From IMG/VR virus record IMGVR_UViG_3300043427_000906, positions 1 through 60,217 of that record: a DNA stretch of 60,217 nucleotides; one strand, given 5' to 3'. Positions 55,588 through 59,795 of the stretch are shown in pieces (the stretch's first letter is position 1; the number at the start of each line of letters is the position of its first letter). This DNA is from a virus. Made by a program: the position numbers and the translations under genes. The notes under the pieces are model-generated. The model was not told the DNA's origin. It ran no database searches and saw only the letters and a program-made list of their open reading frames with translations.

Positions 55588-55635
55588 GGAACTGGTTGCC
55601 ATCGAAGGCCACGGCATATCCGCCAGTTCGAGGGA
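55588..55635 (-). ncRNA. Intergenic minihelix element 1
   Basis: It starts right after the stop at 55636 with CCCTCGAACTGG and ends CCAGTTCCTCATCAAA. The outer stem is AACTGG/CCAGTT. Inside are CGG-ATATG-CCG and GCC-TTCGAT-GGC. It is a looser member of the family, since its second hairpin is only 3 bp. Confidence 0.6.
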
Positions 55636-55950
55636 TTAATATTGAGGGAAGTCAATACCGTACTTGCTTGTGAAATTTATCTGCTCTTCCCTGCTGATGT
55701 AAATATGGATTGGATAGTCCATCATGCCCTTCAATTGGTTCATGTCAAAAATTGTATAGTGTGATTCATCATCCAACTTTAGTCCCATATTTTCTACGCT
55801 TGATAGGTAGAACTGGAGTGCCTTCTTGATAATATCTTTTTGGCCTTGTGGAATTTCAATTCGATTGTTGGATATTTCATTGAACTTAAATTCGAATTCC
55901 CAATCAATTTGATTTGCATCGATTCCTTTGTACGTGATTTTGTAACTCAT
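55636..55950 (-). CDS. Hypothetical protein, 104 aa
   Basis: The start MSYKITYKGIDAN follows the usual AAAACAA leader. The first upstream Met lies inside the preceding RNA element. Mixed strand and helix, no family recognised. Confidence 0.6.
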   Translation of the reverse strand: MSYKITYKGIDANQIDWEFEFKFNEISNNRIEIPQGQKDIIKKALQFYLSSVENMGLKLDDESHYTIFDMNQLKGMMDYPIHIYISREEQINFTSKYGIDFPQY

Positions 55951-55970
55951 TTGTTTTAGGGTTTTGGTGA

Positions 55971-56024
55971 GGAACTGCATCGGTCACGAGCCGATAGTCA
56001 AGCGGTCTTGAGCAGTTCGGGGGA
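55971..56024 (-). ncRNA. Intergenic minihelix element 2
   Basis: It opens one base after the stop at 56025 with CCCCCGAACTGC. The outer stem GAACTGC/GCAGTTC is 7 bp. Inside are TCAAG-ACCG-CTTGA and then ATCGG-CTCGTGA-CCGAT, i.e. a 5-bp arm with a 7-nt loop stacked on the 7-bp stem, exactly acceptor plus T-arm size. It leads into CTCACCAAAA before the next ATG. Confidence 0.7.
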
Positions 56025-56213
56025 TTATATACATAGCCTAATCTCAGAGATTTCAGTACCATCAACTAGCCTTAGACCAATGACTTCATCTACCGAAAAT
56101 TCATATAGGTCTTCAGTCCTATAACCTTCGTGTATCTCAACAACGACTGCATCTTCATCCCTAAAATCTGCTATGGCTTTTTTTAGTTCGCCAATGGTTG
56201 TTATCTTGCTCAT
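56025..56213 (-). CDS. Hypothetical protein, 62 aa
   Basis: It starts MSKITTIGELKKAIADF and is acidic with a small alpha/beta pattern. Followed directly by element 2. No family recognised. Confidence 0.55.
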   Translation of the reverse strand: MSKITTIGELKKAIADFRDEDAVVVEIHEGYRTEDLYEFSVDEVIGLRLVDGTEISEIRLCI

Positions 56214-56233
56214 ATGTTTTTAATTTTATTTAA

Positions 56234-56473
56234 TTAATCTACCCAGTCGGGTAAGCAAAGTTTTCTTTCTACTAATTCTGCACGTATCTTACTCTCATTC
56301 GCCATTAAGAAACTTTCCATACATTCATACTCACCCCTATCGGGATTGTTGTAGGAGGAATTTTCATACTTGGAATAGAGTAACAATAGGTCTTCATAGA
56401 GTAGGTCATACTCATACTGGATACCCACATACGCATTGTATAACTGGGTGAAGAGGAAGAAGGAGTAGTTCAT
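56234..56473 (-). CDS. Hypothetical Tyr-rich protein, 79 aa
   Basis: Tyr-rich helical start (YEYDLLYEDLLLLYSKYE) and a charged end. No family recognised. Confidence 0.55.
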   Translation of the reverse strand: MNYSFFLFTQLYNAYVGIQYEYDLLYEDLLLLYSKYENSSYNNPDRGEYECMESFLMANESKIRAELVERKLCLPDWVD

Positions 56474-56490
56474 AGTGTTTTATTTAAAGG

Positions 56491-56877
56491 TTAATAATCA
56501 TCGTACCATATCTCTTGCCATTCAGAACGTGGACGTATACTCTGACCGGCGGCATTGTAACATTTCCCACAATAACAGTAGCATAGACCTTCACTATCCA
56601 TATCCATCTCAAACCTCTTACCACATTCGCATTCAGCTATAGCCGGAGTAAACCTACTAAACTCTCTTTCTTGTACATATGGTGGTCTAATCGCGCCGAC
56701 CATACCATCAATGCATTGCTGATAGTTGTGCTTGGCATACTCATTTAAGCTATCAACATCAACGTGTCCATACTGGTCACAAGGGAAGGAGAAACCGCCA
56801 TTACTGGAGGTGTCATAGTTCAGCGAATGTTCCACGAAAAATTCTCTTTCGGAATGTTTGATGATTTTTGCGCTCAT
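56491..56877 (-). CDS. Zinc-ribbon protein, 128 aa
   Basis: Four Cys in ECECGKRF and CYCYCGKCY (about residues 85-110) probably bind zinc. The first 80 residues have no recognised domain. It could be a DNA- or protein-binding protein in the early arm. Confidence 0.6.
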   Translation of the reverse strand: MSAKIIKHSEREFFVEHSLNYDTSSNGGFSFPCDQYGHVDVDSLNEYAKHNYQQCIDGMVGAIRPPYVQEREFSRFTPAIAECECGKRFEMDMDSEGLCYCYCGKCYNAAGQSIRPRSEWQEIWYDDY

Positions 56878-56891
56878 AAAAATAGATTTGG

Positions 56892-56957
56892 TTAAGAATT
56901 TTCTATCTCTTCCGCGAGGCGGATTAACTCATCGATTGCTTCTTGTATCTCATCCAT
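56892..56957 (-). CDS. Very short helical peptide, 21 aa
   Basis: MDEIQEAIDELIRLAEEIENS starts in a TAATG overlap with the preceding gene and would form one amphipathic acidic helix. The overlap pattern supports it, the length does not. Confidence 0.4.
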   Translation of the reverse strand: MDEIQEAIDELIRLAEEIENS

Positions 56958-57223
56958 TACCACTCATTTTCGGTGAAGAATTTAATTGAATTTTGGATGC
57001 TACCAGTTGTGCCTTTCTTAATCTCATCACGACTGGGGATGTAGTTACCATAGTAGTCGCGGTGGGATTCTTTTGGTAGGAAACACGCGCCAGTCTTCAG
57101 CATATCCATAGCCGATCGACCAATCGCACCTTCCATCTTCCAAGCAGTACCAGTTTCGATGAGGAACTGCATCTCCGCGTAGCCTTGCTCACGTTGATGC
57201 TTTCTAATTGTTTGGATGTTCAT
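56957..57223 (-). CDS. Hypothetical protein, 88 aa
   Basis: It starts MNIQTIRKHQREQGYAEM. The pattern IETGTAWKMEGAIGRSAMDML suggests a small helical protein, and related proteins occur in many phages, but no name is assigned. It follows element 3b. Confidence 0.6.
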   Translation of the reverse strand: MNIQTIRKHQREQGYAEMQFLIETGTAWKMEGAIGRSAMDMLKTGACFLPKESHRDYYGNYIPSRDEIKKGTTGSIQNSIKFFTENEW

Positions 57224-57242
57224 AGGTTTGAAATTTAGTTAG

Positions 57243-57285
57243 GAACTGCCGGAGGAATCGAACCTCCGTAAGACCATCGCAGTTC
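57243..57285 (-). ncRNA. Intergenic minihelix element 3b, tRNA T-arm-like
   Basis: GAACTGC/GCAGTTC (7 bp) is joined by the 10-nt linker GATGGTCTTA to CGGAGG-TTCGATT-CCTCCG, whose 7-nt loop is a canonical tRNA T-loop. Total 13 stacked base pairs. The same 10-nt linker occurs in element 6. D and anticodon arms are missing, so it is not a tRNA. Confidence 0.75.
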
Positions 57286-57289
57286 TTTT

Positions 57290-57353
57290 GCCGAGCCGAT
57301 AGTGAACACATCTATGTCCTCCTATCCCCACACTATATGTGGTGGCTCTCGGC
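57290..57353 (-). ncRNA. Intergenic three-way element 3a
   Basis: It opens after the stop at 57365 with TCCCCCGAACC. The outer stem GCCGAG/CTCGGC encloses CCACA-TATAG-TGTGG and ATAG...CTAT with ACAT/ATGT inside. Element 3b follows after 4 bases, making a tandem pair. Confidence 0.6.
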
Positions 57354-57364
57354 GGTTCGGGGGA

Positions 57365-57640
57365 TTACTCAATCTCTACTAGTTCACCATCCTTTAGTAC
57401 GTACTGATAGTCATCTTCATCCTCCCATTCAGTCCAATAAGAATCAGTATCGGCTATTAACTCACCATCCTCATCCGTATCTCCCGAATAGACCATATCG
57501 TGCCATTCAGCATCGGTAAATTCTTTATTGAGGCAGTTTTGTGAGCAGTAGTATTCTACACCACCGCCAACTACATAGCCATCATTCATACCACATCCAC
57601 ACTCGGTGCATTTTCTTGCAAATTTCATAGGATTAATCAT
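57365..57640 (-). CDS. Small zinc-finger-like protein, 91 aa
   Basis: Cys pairs CTECGCG (about residues 10-16) and CSQNC (about 32-36) suggest a zinc site. The rest is very acidic (GDTDEDGELIADTDSYW). Start at MINPMKF or, four codons on, MKFARK just after the upstream stop. Confidence 0.6.
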   Translation of the reverse strand: MINPMKFARKCTECGCGMNDGYVVGGGVEYYCSQNCLNKEFTDAEWHDMVYSGDTDEDGELIADTDSYWTEWEDEDDYQYVLKDGELVEIE

Positions 57641-57785
57641 TTAATGAATTAATGTGTTCAATTTCAGCATCATCTAGGTAGATGCAGAGTCCGTTATCTA
57701 GTTTGATGTAGTGGTCACCGGCATCAATTATCTTTTTGCCTACTAGATAATCTTTGGTTTCGGGTGAGATTTTTTCAACTTGCAT
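57633..57785 (-). CDS. Hypothetical protein, 50 aa
   Basis: MQVEKISPETKDYLVGKK, then a small beta pattern DAGDHYIKLDNGLCIYL. ATGATTAA overlap with the next gene. No family recognised. Confidence 0.55.
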   Translation of the reverse strand: MQVEKISPETKDYLVGKKIIDAGDHYIKLDNGLCIYLDDAEIEHINSLND

Positions 57786-57803
57786 AGTTTGTGTTTTGGT
57801 TAT

Positions 57804-58013
57804 TTAGATAATAGTTTTTAGGACTCTATGCCCATAGAAGGCATATTGACCAAATTCTACGTAGTTACTTTCAGCATCAATGCAGTTCGTAACTTTCAAT
57901 AACTTACCTCTTGGAGGTGTGTCTCCTTCTAGGTCTTCAATGTCTAGAACAATGACCTCATCCCCAACTTCTAGGGTGTTGCCATCTACATCATTACAAA
58001 AAAAGTTTTTCAT
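57804..58013 (-). CDS. Hypothetical protein, 69 aa
   Basis: The start chosen is MKNFFCNDVDGN. Upstream Mets would read through element 4. The pattern VGDEVIVLDIEDLEG with later VLK is a small SH3-like barrel type often seen in phage proteins (inference). Confidence 0.6.
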   Translation of the reverse strand: MKNFFCNDVDGNTLEVGDEVIVLDIEDLEGDTPPRGKLLKVTNCIDAESNYVEFGQYAFYGHRVLKTII

Positions 58014-58032
58014 ATTATAGGGGGTTTGGTGA

Positions 58033-58080
58033 GGAACTGAGGGTGGTTTCGCTCCGACTTCGGTCAAACTTCGCAGTCCG
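58033..58080 (-). ncRNA. Intergenic minihelix element 4
   Basis: After the stop at 58086 comes TCCACCGGACTG. GGACTG/CAGTTC pairs (one G-U). The interior has GTTT/AAAC and CCGA/TCGG. The 3' end (ACCACCCTCAGTTCCTCACCAAA) is nearly identical to that of element 5, showing common origin. Confidence 0.6.
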
Positions 58081-58085
58081 GTGGA

Positions 58086-58262
58086 TTAAAATTTAATCCA
58101 TTGTTCTTCCGGAAGGAACTCAAGAAGATTGTCTTTGGGAATAAAGGACAATAATGCCCAAACAGCAGTAGTGTCTCCATCTTCAACATCTTTTAAAATC
58201 TGCTCAATTACTGCATCAATTAATGCTTTTTTTTCTACCATAACTTCAATAGTTGTCTTCAT
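58086..58262 (-). CDS. Small acidic helical protein, 58 aa
   Basis: MKTTIEVMVEKKALIDAV to EEQWIKF. Resembles small phage proteins seen next to replication genes, unnamed. Followed directly by element 4. Confidence 0.55.
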   Translation of the reverse strand: MKTTIEVMVEKKALIDAVIEQILKDVEDGDTTAVWALLSFIPKDNLLEFLPEEQWIKF

Positions 58263-58282
58263 TTGTGTTTTGATTTGGTGAG

Positions 58283-58328
58283 GAACTGAGGGTGGTAACG
58301 AACCACCTTCGCACGTTGCTCTCAGTTC
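58283..58328 (-). ncRNA. Intergenic minihelix element 5, acceptor/T-arm geometry
   Basis: One base after the stop at 58335 comes CCCCCGAACTGAG. AACTGAG/CTCAGTT (7 bp) stacks on GGTGG-TTCGTTA-CCACC (5 bp, 7-nt loop). The 13-nt linker is A-GC-AACGT-GC-GAA. Element 7 has the same linker layout with changed pairs, so the small inner hairpin covaries. The leader CTCACCAAATC and the next ATG follow. Confidence 0.78.
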
Positions 58329-58334
58329 GGGGGA

Positions 58335-58820
58335 TTAAAACTCCCAGTCATAGTGATACTCTGCAACACCGAAGAGGATATTAACCTTATCGAATGACTT
58401 CTTGACTTTAGTCACTCCATCAATCAATCGAAGGTCACCTCTATCATCCCATACGTTAAGTAGCTTCTGCGCATCCCATAACTCCTCTCTAGTGGCGAAA
58501 GAATTGTACCAATCATCGTTGAATACAATCATATTGCACTCTTTCCTCCACGCACGATTGCGGTATACTAAGGTATGCTTGGGGGCAGATAGGTCGGGGG
58601 TAATATCCCACTCTTGATGTCCCATACCTTCGCCTATCGCTTTATGCTTCATCGCTCTAATTACGCACCTCTTACCATCATTAGATACCTCTAGCACCTC
58701 GTAAGGGTATCGGTCGGAATACATTAGCAGAGTAGCACCTTTGCCTACTTCGGGAACGGATGAATTGTTGCCCATTAGGTAGTTGGTGAAGCTACCTTCT
58801 AGTTTTCTTTTTTGTCTCAT
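58335..58820 (-). CDS. Hypothetical protein, 161 aa
   Basis: Beta-rich, with YPYEVLEVSNDGKRCVIRAM (about residues 38-57) and a late WRKECNMIVFNDDW. No family recognised. It lies between elements 6 and 5. Confidence 0.6.
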   Translation of the reverse strand: MRQKRKLEGSFTNYLMGNNSSVPEVGKGATLLMYSDRYPYEVLEVSNDGKRCVIRAMKHKAIGEGMGHQEWDITPDLSAPKHTLVYRNRAWRKECNMIVFNDDWYNSFATREELWDAQKLLNVWDDRGDLRLIDGVTKVKKSFDKVNILFGVAEYHYDWEF

Positions 58821-58839
58821 AGGTTTAAAATTTGATTCG

Positions 58840-58882
58840 TAACTGGGAGGGGAGTCGAACCCCTCCTAAGACCATCCAGTTA
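58840..58882 (-). ncRNA. Intergenic minihelix element 6, tRNA T-arm-like
   Basis: TAACTG/CAGTTA (6 bp), linker GATGGTCTTA, then GGAGGGG-TTCGACT-CCCCTCC (7 bp, canonical T-loop). The stop codon TAA of the gene at 58880-59641 forms part of the 5' strand, so translation termination and folding are linked. Confidence 0.75.
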
Positions 58883-59641
58883 TCCGCATACGAACTCCGG
58901 TATGCTTACTTCAACCCCATTCTCTACGATATCTTTCAGCCAGTTCTTCTCCTTGCCACTCATCAGCAAGGTGAATCCTAATCTCTCTTCGGTTTCTACG
59001 TAGCGCTTGTATAGGTCGGGATTATGCTTAGCCGCTACTTTGATATCACTTTTATTGGACATAATACAAAACACACACGATAGTCGGCTCATACCTAAAT
59101 CGTAGGCATAGTGTCTCTTTTGACCTACTGATTCGATTTCTGCCCATACTTCCTTAACACTCCAGTCAAAAATGGGTAACCAGTCATACCATTCGCGACC
59201 GGCTTTGCTATTGCGTTCACTGATACGGAATGGGATTTGTTTTGCTCGTGCTGATGATTCTTCCGCGCGGATGCCCATACAATTCACGATGATATTTTTG
59301 CCGTTTTCCTTGCACCAGTTACGGATAAATTTCTCAATCGGTTGTCTCTTGAGGTCACTGGTACACTGGCGATAACTGGGGGATGGGAACATACCACGAT
59401 GCTCGACCATCTCAAAGAAAGTTTTTCCGGCACGTACCATATGCGCCTCAATGCCCATTGAATTCTGCTGAACGTGTTCCCAACATCCCTCCCAGTCAAC
59501 TTCGGGTAGGTCTGCGTGGATGATTACCAGTTGGTCGTGTGGAACGACTTTGCTCAAAAATATTTTCATTGCTTGAGAATCCTTTCCACCGGAATCATTG
59601 ATGAAAAATATTGCGCCTCTGTCAATTAATTGCTGAATCAT
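58880..59641 (-). CDS. PAPS reductase-family ATP-pyrophosphatase protein
   Basis: In this 253-residue protein FINDSGGKDSQAM (about residues 13-25) is the SGGxDS PP-loop. CTSDLKRQPI (about 93-102), MGIRAEESSARA (about 122-133) and LSCVFCIM (about 187-194) are blocks shared with PAPS reductase/DndC-like proteins. Family members reduce sulfate or make phosphorothioate or thiolated nucleic acids. Absence of other Dnd genes here leaves the reaction open. It is flanked by elements 6 and 7. Confidence 0.8.
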   Translation of the reverse strand: MIQQLIDRGAIFFINDSGGKDSQAMKIFLSKVVPHDQLVIIHADLPEVDWEGCWEHVQQNSMGIEAHMVRAGKTFFEMVEHRGMFPSPSYRQCTSDLKRQPIEKFIRNWCKENGKNIIVNCMGIRAEESSARAKQIPFRISERNSKAGREWYDWLPIFDWSVKEVWAEIESVGQKRHYAYDLGMSRLSCVFCIMSNKSDIKVAAKHNPDLYKRYVETEERLGFTLLMSGKEKNWLKDIVENGVEVSIPEFVCG

Positions 59642-59659
59642 AAAATTGGGGTTTGGTGG

Positions 59660-59705
59660 TAACTGGGGGCAGTATCGCTCTGCCTTCGGACTTTCCTCCC
59701 AGTTC
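59660..59705 (-). ncRNA. Intergenic minihelix element 7 with 3' ACCA
   Basis: After the stop at 59712 comes TCACCCGAACTGGG. AACTGGG/CCCAGTT (7 bp) stacks on GGCAG-AGCGATA-CTGCC (5 bp, 7-nt loop). The linker is A-GG-AAAGT-CC-GAA. The 3' strand is followed by A-CCA, i.e. like a tRNA discriminator plus CCA end. Together with element 5 it defines a consensus. Confidence 0.78.
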
Positions 59706-59711
59706 GGGTGA

Positions 59712-59795
59712 CTACTTACAAAACTGGTCTTGCAGTAGACCTACAACGTACCCTACTACTAGCAGAGTAACGAAGAGATAGATAACTTGTCTCAT
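59712..59795 (-). CDS. Tiny membrane peptide, 27 aa
   Basis: MRQVIYLFVTLLVVGYVVGLL then LQDQFCK. One hydrophobic helix with a short polar end. ATGA overlap with the upstream gene. Possibly a membrane-acting early protein. Confidence 0.5.
   Translation of the reverse strand: MRQVIYLFVTLLVVGYVVGLLQDQFCK

Follow-up and report, generated by a model that had tools for sequence, protein, structure and literature searches.

A covarying tRNA-like RNA element between phage genes, and its possible role in dividing polycistronic messages

Small RNA elements that resemble part of a tRNA lie at gene boundaries in an IMG/VR virus record of 60,217 bases (IMGVR_UViG_3300043427_000906), the whole of which is referred to here as the window. 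The window has genes for terminase, primase/helicase, RecE, Erf recombination and integrase, and the elements occupy seven sites (E1 to E7, with E3a and E3b), all of them minus-strand and within a series of short genes at the right end of the window. E3b and E6 are members of a covarying class, type A, in which an acceptor-like stem and a D-loop-like strand (AUGGU) are combined with a T-stem and the T-loop UUCGAYU. This is an RNA class that keeps its shape while its letters change. The acceptor and T-arm mimicry at gene boundaries proposed in an initial annotation of the window is strongly supported, and the AUGGU strand in the type A linker goes further than that proposal. We read the elements, with confidence just short of even, as minimal tRNA mimics that would punctuate polycistronic phage messages and be cut by host tRNA 3′ maturation.

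Type A runs in the order stem, linker AUGGUNNNA, stem and loop UUCGAYU, and its alignment lacks a D-stem and an anticodon arm. In an alignment of 19 sequences, standard pairs fill 96% of the pair cells and two-sided changes affect 10 of 12 pairs. Covariation scores 0.829, compared to at most 0.17 with slid partners, and GG and TTCGA are invariant. Since these sequences were picked partly by their stems, a stem-independent test was designed, using two patterns in viral contigs that fix only the linker and T-loop region (two flanking GG/CC pairs). With tRNAs found by ARAGORN removed before counting, the matches listed contain 97 distinct elements; the closing stem reaches at least 5 bp in 87/97, versus 7% for displaced partners, with 79 distinct closing stems. 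A covariance model of type A, R1, was built from the 19 sequences. Type B, with a small second hairpin, covaries too, and this includes the second hairpin, although the type B sequences were chosen for their first and third stems and not for the hairpin. Both stems of type A show many two-sided changes. Recent duplication alone therefore does not account for the copies, and the main refutation named in the initial annotation does not apply. The AAUGGU linker resembles tRNA D-loops. The conserved GG of the linker and UUC of the loop are letters from which the tRNA elbow is formed (PMC4810234).

The position of the elements relative to genes was counted for the 87 stem-bearing elements among the matches listed, to which all following counts out of 87, 54 and 49 refer. 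A same-strand stop codon is nearby in 70/87, at a median of 8 nt upstream, and a downstream ATG in 66/87, at a median of 29 nt. Both are present for 60/87, compared to 10/87 on the flipped strand, and 11/87 are located inside an open reading frame (ORF) of at least 100 aa, versus 64% of random positions. Excised elements could instead act in trans as small RNAs, for example as decoys for tRNA-binding host enzymes or defences. Conserved elbow letters, variable stems and many copies per genome would suit such a role, but a one-strand placement tied to flanking stops and starts would be needless for it, and we consider it improbable. Decayed tRNA genes or integration (att) remnants are hardly credible. 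The T-arm letters do match tRNA, L049 is located within a tRNA cluster and degenerate tRNA-like structures occur in Lactococcus phage 712; however, compensatory change maintains the stems, several copies occur per operon at gene boundaries, and ARAGORN returned no tRNA in the window or in most other phage loci scanned. Such relics and att remnants are disfavoured by the covariation, the stem test and the placement counts, and mobile repeats were rejected along with them.

The ends of the elements suggest where a cut might fall. Directly after the stem, N-C-N-A is found in 54/87, compared to 8–14/87 at control positions, with CTA in 20 of the 54, CAA in 20, CGA in 12 and CCA in 2. This N-C-D-A resembles a tRNA-like end that avoids CCA, and CCA is an anti-determinant of RNase Z. 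The upstream stop codon ends inside the element in 15 of the 49 with a testable upstream ORF, E6 included, and where it ends inside the first stem, as it often does, a 5′ cut would remove it. Stops inside elements, together with CCA avoidance, favour a 3′ cut by RNase Z, which appears to fit better than the RNase P cut put forward in the initial annotation. That earlier proposal, in which RNase P cuts the 5′ base of the element and so makes the 3′ end of the upstream message, now seems unlikely: it would leave stop-less messages in those 15 cases, and RNase P favours U before the stem, whereas the preceding base is mostly A (47/87). In its favour, the elements have the tRNA-like elbow parts, every mycobacteriophage element listed has a G start and a C end at the closing pair (G1-C72-like), and RNase P makes the upstream 3′ end in mascRNA (PMC11693755).

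In support of a cut by RNase Z, the enzyme works on CCA-less precursors and grips the elbow (PMC4810234), and elbow mimicry in mascRNA recruits both RNase P and RNase Z (PMC11693755). In the proposed mechanism, GG and UUC would come together as in the tRNA elbow, host RNase Z, possibly aided by RNase P, would read that elbow, and the cut would leave one unpaired base on the 3′ side of the stem. A tRNA-like structure would then protect the end of the upstream message, while the message downstream would start at a new 5′ end with its ribosome-binding leader retained. The three types, A, B and C, would be interchangeable versions of one signal, and placement suggests a single transcript spanning the element. 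The element may alternatively stay uncut, as a compact structure in the 3′ untranslated region that serves as a barrier to exonucleases or as a translational insulator between neighbouring genes. It does lie nearer to the upstream stop than to the downstream start (the medians of 8 and 29 nt above), and one element, in L122, has a terminator-like hairpin and a U run behind it. This alternative is doubtful nonetheless, because any hairpin would suffice, leaving the conserved D-loop and T-loop letters and the N-C-D-A end unexplained.

Several observations weigh against tRNA mimicry with a 3′ cut. Types B and C have loops (AGCGATA, YTCGYGA) that deviate from the T-loop consensus, the stack length ranges from 10 to 14 bp among elements compared to 12 in tRNA, and E7 carries a real ACCA, an exception to the avoidance of CCA. 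In addition, a downstream hairpin is not enriched in the mixed metagenomic set (23/87 versus 28% at random positions); 5-bp hairpins likewise show no excess there, with a mild excess at 6 bp. In mycobacteriophages the order is stop, element, hairpin, purine-rich GAGAGGATGG and ATG, and the hairpin is present for 21/23 elements of Papyrus, Fowlmouth and Predator, versus 25% at random positions. As a general feature the downstream hairpin was rejected, as it holds in mycobacteriophages and fails in the mixed set. In L137, elements are immediately followed by inverted repeats like TTGACACAWCYGTGTCAA, which precede the ribosome-binding site; TTGACA is also similar to a −35 box.

Type A is not confined to the early operon of one phage, a description that proved too narrow, since the class is found in many unrelated phages. 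These include Bacteroides phage BF1-TP2, crAss-like phage cr131_1, Flavobacterium phage FL-1 and many uncultured phages, as well as the mycobacteriophages Fowlmouth, Predator and Papyrus, the last with 13 elements, nearly all at gene boundaries. One type A pattern searched over 84,980 bacterial and archaeal species genomes (257 Gb) gave a single match, which lacks the closing stem and was therefore judged to be chance, and the exact pattern CCCCGAACTG...CAGTTCCTCACC had zero matches in viral contigs. The family is widespread in phages and has apparently gone unnoticed because its members are too short to be picked up by tRNA finders and vary too much to be traced by sequence search. It is possible, if short of probable, that phages with hosts from Bacteroidetes to mycobacteria share an elbow-only signal, nearly absent from cells, that recruits the host tRNA-maturation machinery to cut their messages gene by gene; it would then be tRNA punctuation in a bacterial-virus form, made of armless mini-tRNAs. 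If true, phages would rely on essential tRNA enzymes of the host to split up their operons, the regular 60–100 nt gaps between genes in some phages would be accounted for, and the elements would offer RNase P and RNase Z a minimal substrate of natural origin. Two local arrangements of elements were also seen: a palindrome, GGTGTCTTTGAAGACACC, is repeated beside several elements in L060 and L056, and L132 has five near-identical elements (stem GCGAGCC or similar) about 150–200 nt apart at 1096-1771.

Within the window, a mechanical scan looked for a closing stem of 7 bp, a linker and, abutting the closing stem, a 5-bp arm that carries a 7-nt loop. In the region of the seven sites it returned exactly E2, E3b, E5, E6 and E7, which all fold into the 12–13 stacked base pairs with a 7-nt loop that had been described for them; 200 dinucleotide-preserving shuffles averaged 0.23 and never gave more than 2, and the opposite strand gave 1. 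The earlier observation of boundary elements is confirmed: the minus strand has all seven sites, and every one of them separates a stop codon from the following ATG. Of the layout said to be common to all seven, these five elements have the shared form, while E4 has broken stems and E1 and E3a have other shapes. A TCCCCC lead is absent from E6, where the stem instead holds the stop of the preceding gene, and the YCACCAAA-type leader is not universal, being replaced by CGAATCAAA in E6 and CTAACTAAA in E3b. The features are as follows.

59661..59704, minus strand: E7, type B (scan, fold, type-B pair counts), with closing stem AACTGGG/CCCAGTT, small hairpin GGA-AAG-UCC, arm GGCAG/CTGCC and loop AGCGATA, then ACCA.
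58880..59641, minus strand: phosphoadenosine phosphosulfate (PAPS) reductase-like gene between E7 and E6 (PHROG 424, E 2.6e-39).
58840..58882, minus strand: E6, type A (R1 match of 51 bits over 58839-58882; scan), with D-loop-like linker ATGGTCTTAG and T-loop TTCGACT; the TAA stop of the PAPS-reductase-like gene lies inside.
58283..58328, minus strand: E5, type B (fold, scan, type-B pair counts), with an 8-bp closing stem, hairpin GCA-ACG-UGC, arm GGTGG/CCACC and loop TTCGTTA.
58034..58079, minus strand: E4, a mosaic, probably broken (sequence matches; poor fold).
57290..57353, minus strand: E3a, a larger forked hairpin (fold) that begins directly after the upstream stop and precedes E3b.
57243..57285, minus strand: E3b, type A (R1 match of 65.6 bits over 57242-57285, E3b being among the 19 sequences of the model; scan), in parts GAACTGC / GATGGTCTTA / CGGAGG / TTCGATT / CCTCCG / GCAGTTC.
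56957..57223, minus strand: 88-aa gene whose upstream boundary has a type A, B or C element, depending on the relative.
55972..56018, minus strand: E2, type C (fold, scan), with GAACTGC/GCAGTTC, second hairpin TCAAG-ACCG-CTTGA, arm ATCGG/CCGAT and loop CTCGTGA.
55589..55629, minus strand: E1, a variant (fold, relatives) in which the closing stem is GAACTGG/CCAGTTC and the interior is different.

Four relatives, L003–L006, were found through the PAPS-reductase-like protein, with 85–93% identity in that protein, and have many more elements at gene boundaries. E1 is identical in L005, and in L003 its stem has changed on both sides (GAACTAT/ATAGTTC). At the boundary before the 88-aa gene, the window has type A and L003 has type C, L005 and L006 both have type B, and different genes stand upstream. 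The presence of an element at this boundary is thus conserved and its sequence is not, and because the same gene is preceded by different types, types A, B and C appear to be interchangeable. An unlisted 27-aa ORF (MRQVIYLFVTLLVVGYVVGLLQDQFCK) at 59712-59795 on the minus strand of the window is matched in L003, L005 and L006 by a conserved counterpart that is small and membrane-like. Long non-coding stretches stand upstream of element-bearing genes in L003 (3780-4560 and 8507-8970), L005 (4320-5000) and L006 (241-660). They contain conserved blocks, such as GACTAGGTGAGTACGATGGACGGACGG in L003 and L005, have no Rfam match and are possibly a large structured phage RNA.

Recombination does happen at the elements. 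The first 35 nt of E4 match a type B element of L005 at 31/35 positions and its last 20 nt equal E5 (20/20), which makes E4 a mosaic with broken stems, and gene order near elements differs between relatives. Both observations would suit elements that serve mainly as recombination boundaries for cassette shuffling, like the PeSL cassettes of T4-type phages. We think this very improbable as their main function: the stems in L060, L056 and Papyrus mostly differ, leaving little homology, and where stems differ in sequence within one genome recombination is not the explanation. Two-sided stem changes show selection on RNA pairing, and the covariation had already weakened this alternative.

No named family had been recognized for the elements in the initial annotation, and none was found among Rfam families or described in the open-access literature; an earlier description may exist elsewhere in the literature. 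At gathering score, no Rfam 15 model matched in the window or in L003–L006, the nearest element-like match in the window being 14 bits to the tmRNA model over a 17-nt T-arm piece (cut-off 47). In ten further phage loci the sole Rfam match is one real tRNA, in Lactococcus phage 712 (L252). At the 3′ end of that locus, a non-coding stretch near the end of the genome has this tRNA and several degenerate tRNA-like structures, one of which has stem AGCAGTAT/ATACTGCT and D-loop TCTAATGGTAA. By canonical tRNA criteria, the window contains no tRNA and type A has no four-arm cloverleaf with anticodon. A UUCRANY T-loop with a D-loop GG is present in type A and only partly in types B and C, and the NCCA 3′ end is not a feature of the class (CCA in only 2/54), E7 with its ACCA being an exception.

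In mitochondrial tRNA punctuation, tRNA structures between genes mark the cuts that free single messages. The phage elements are alike in standing between genes at cut sites, which are here proposed ones, but mitochondria use genuine aminoacylated tRNAs, whereas the phage elements have neither an anticodon arm nor a CCA end. The tRNA-like domain of tmRNA consists of an acceptor stem, a T-arm and a D-loop strand without a D-stem, all of which type A shares; unlike tmRNA, the phage elements have no mRNA-like domain, CCA or tag reading frame. The PeSL cassettes, reportedly described by Arbiol et al. in 2010 as an early promoter with a stem-loop and linked with gene shuffling, are likewise small structured cassettes at gene boundaries but lack a tRNA-like elbow. 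In cluster K mycobacteriophages, a subset of genes is preceded by SAS, a 13-bp motif of fixed sequence, to which ESAS adds an inverted repeat, with conserved letters and judged likely to be DNA sites (PMC3203893). These are also repeated motifs before some genes, without a tRNA-like fold, and the gaps inspected in Papyrus show variable stems and GAGAGGATGG rather than the GGGATAGGAGCCC repeat and fixed 17-bp inverted repeats.

In mascRNA and menRNA, from human MALAT1 and MEN-beta, a tRNA-like element inside a longer transcript has an acceptor stem, a T-arm and two D-loop guanines that form the elbow, and RNase P and RNase Z are recruited to mascRNA (PMC11693755). An acceptor and T-arm stack with elbow guanines, inside a presumed longer transcript, is, among the phage elements, found in type A only. 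The human RNAs keep a reduced D-stem and an anticodon-like stem, both absent from type A, and they lie at one 3′ end of a human long non-coding RNA, where processing is proven, compared to the many copies of type A between genes. Processing elements of a tRNA-like kind are therefore already known in other settings, and the class that stands between phage genes appears to be new.

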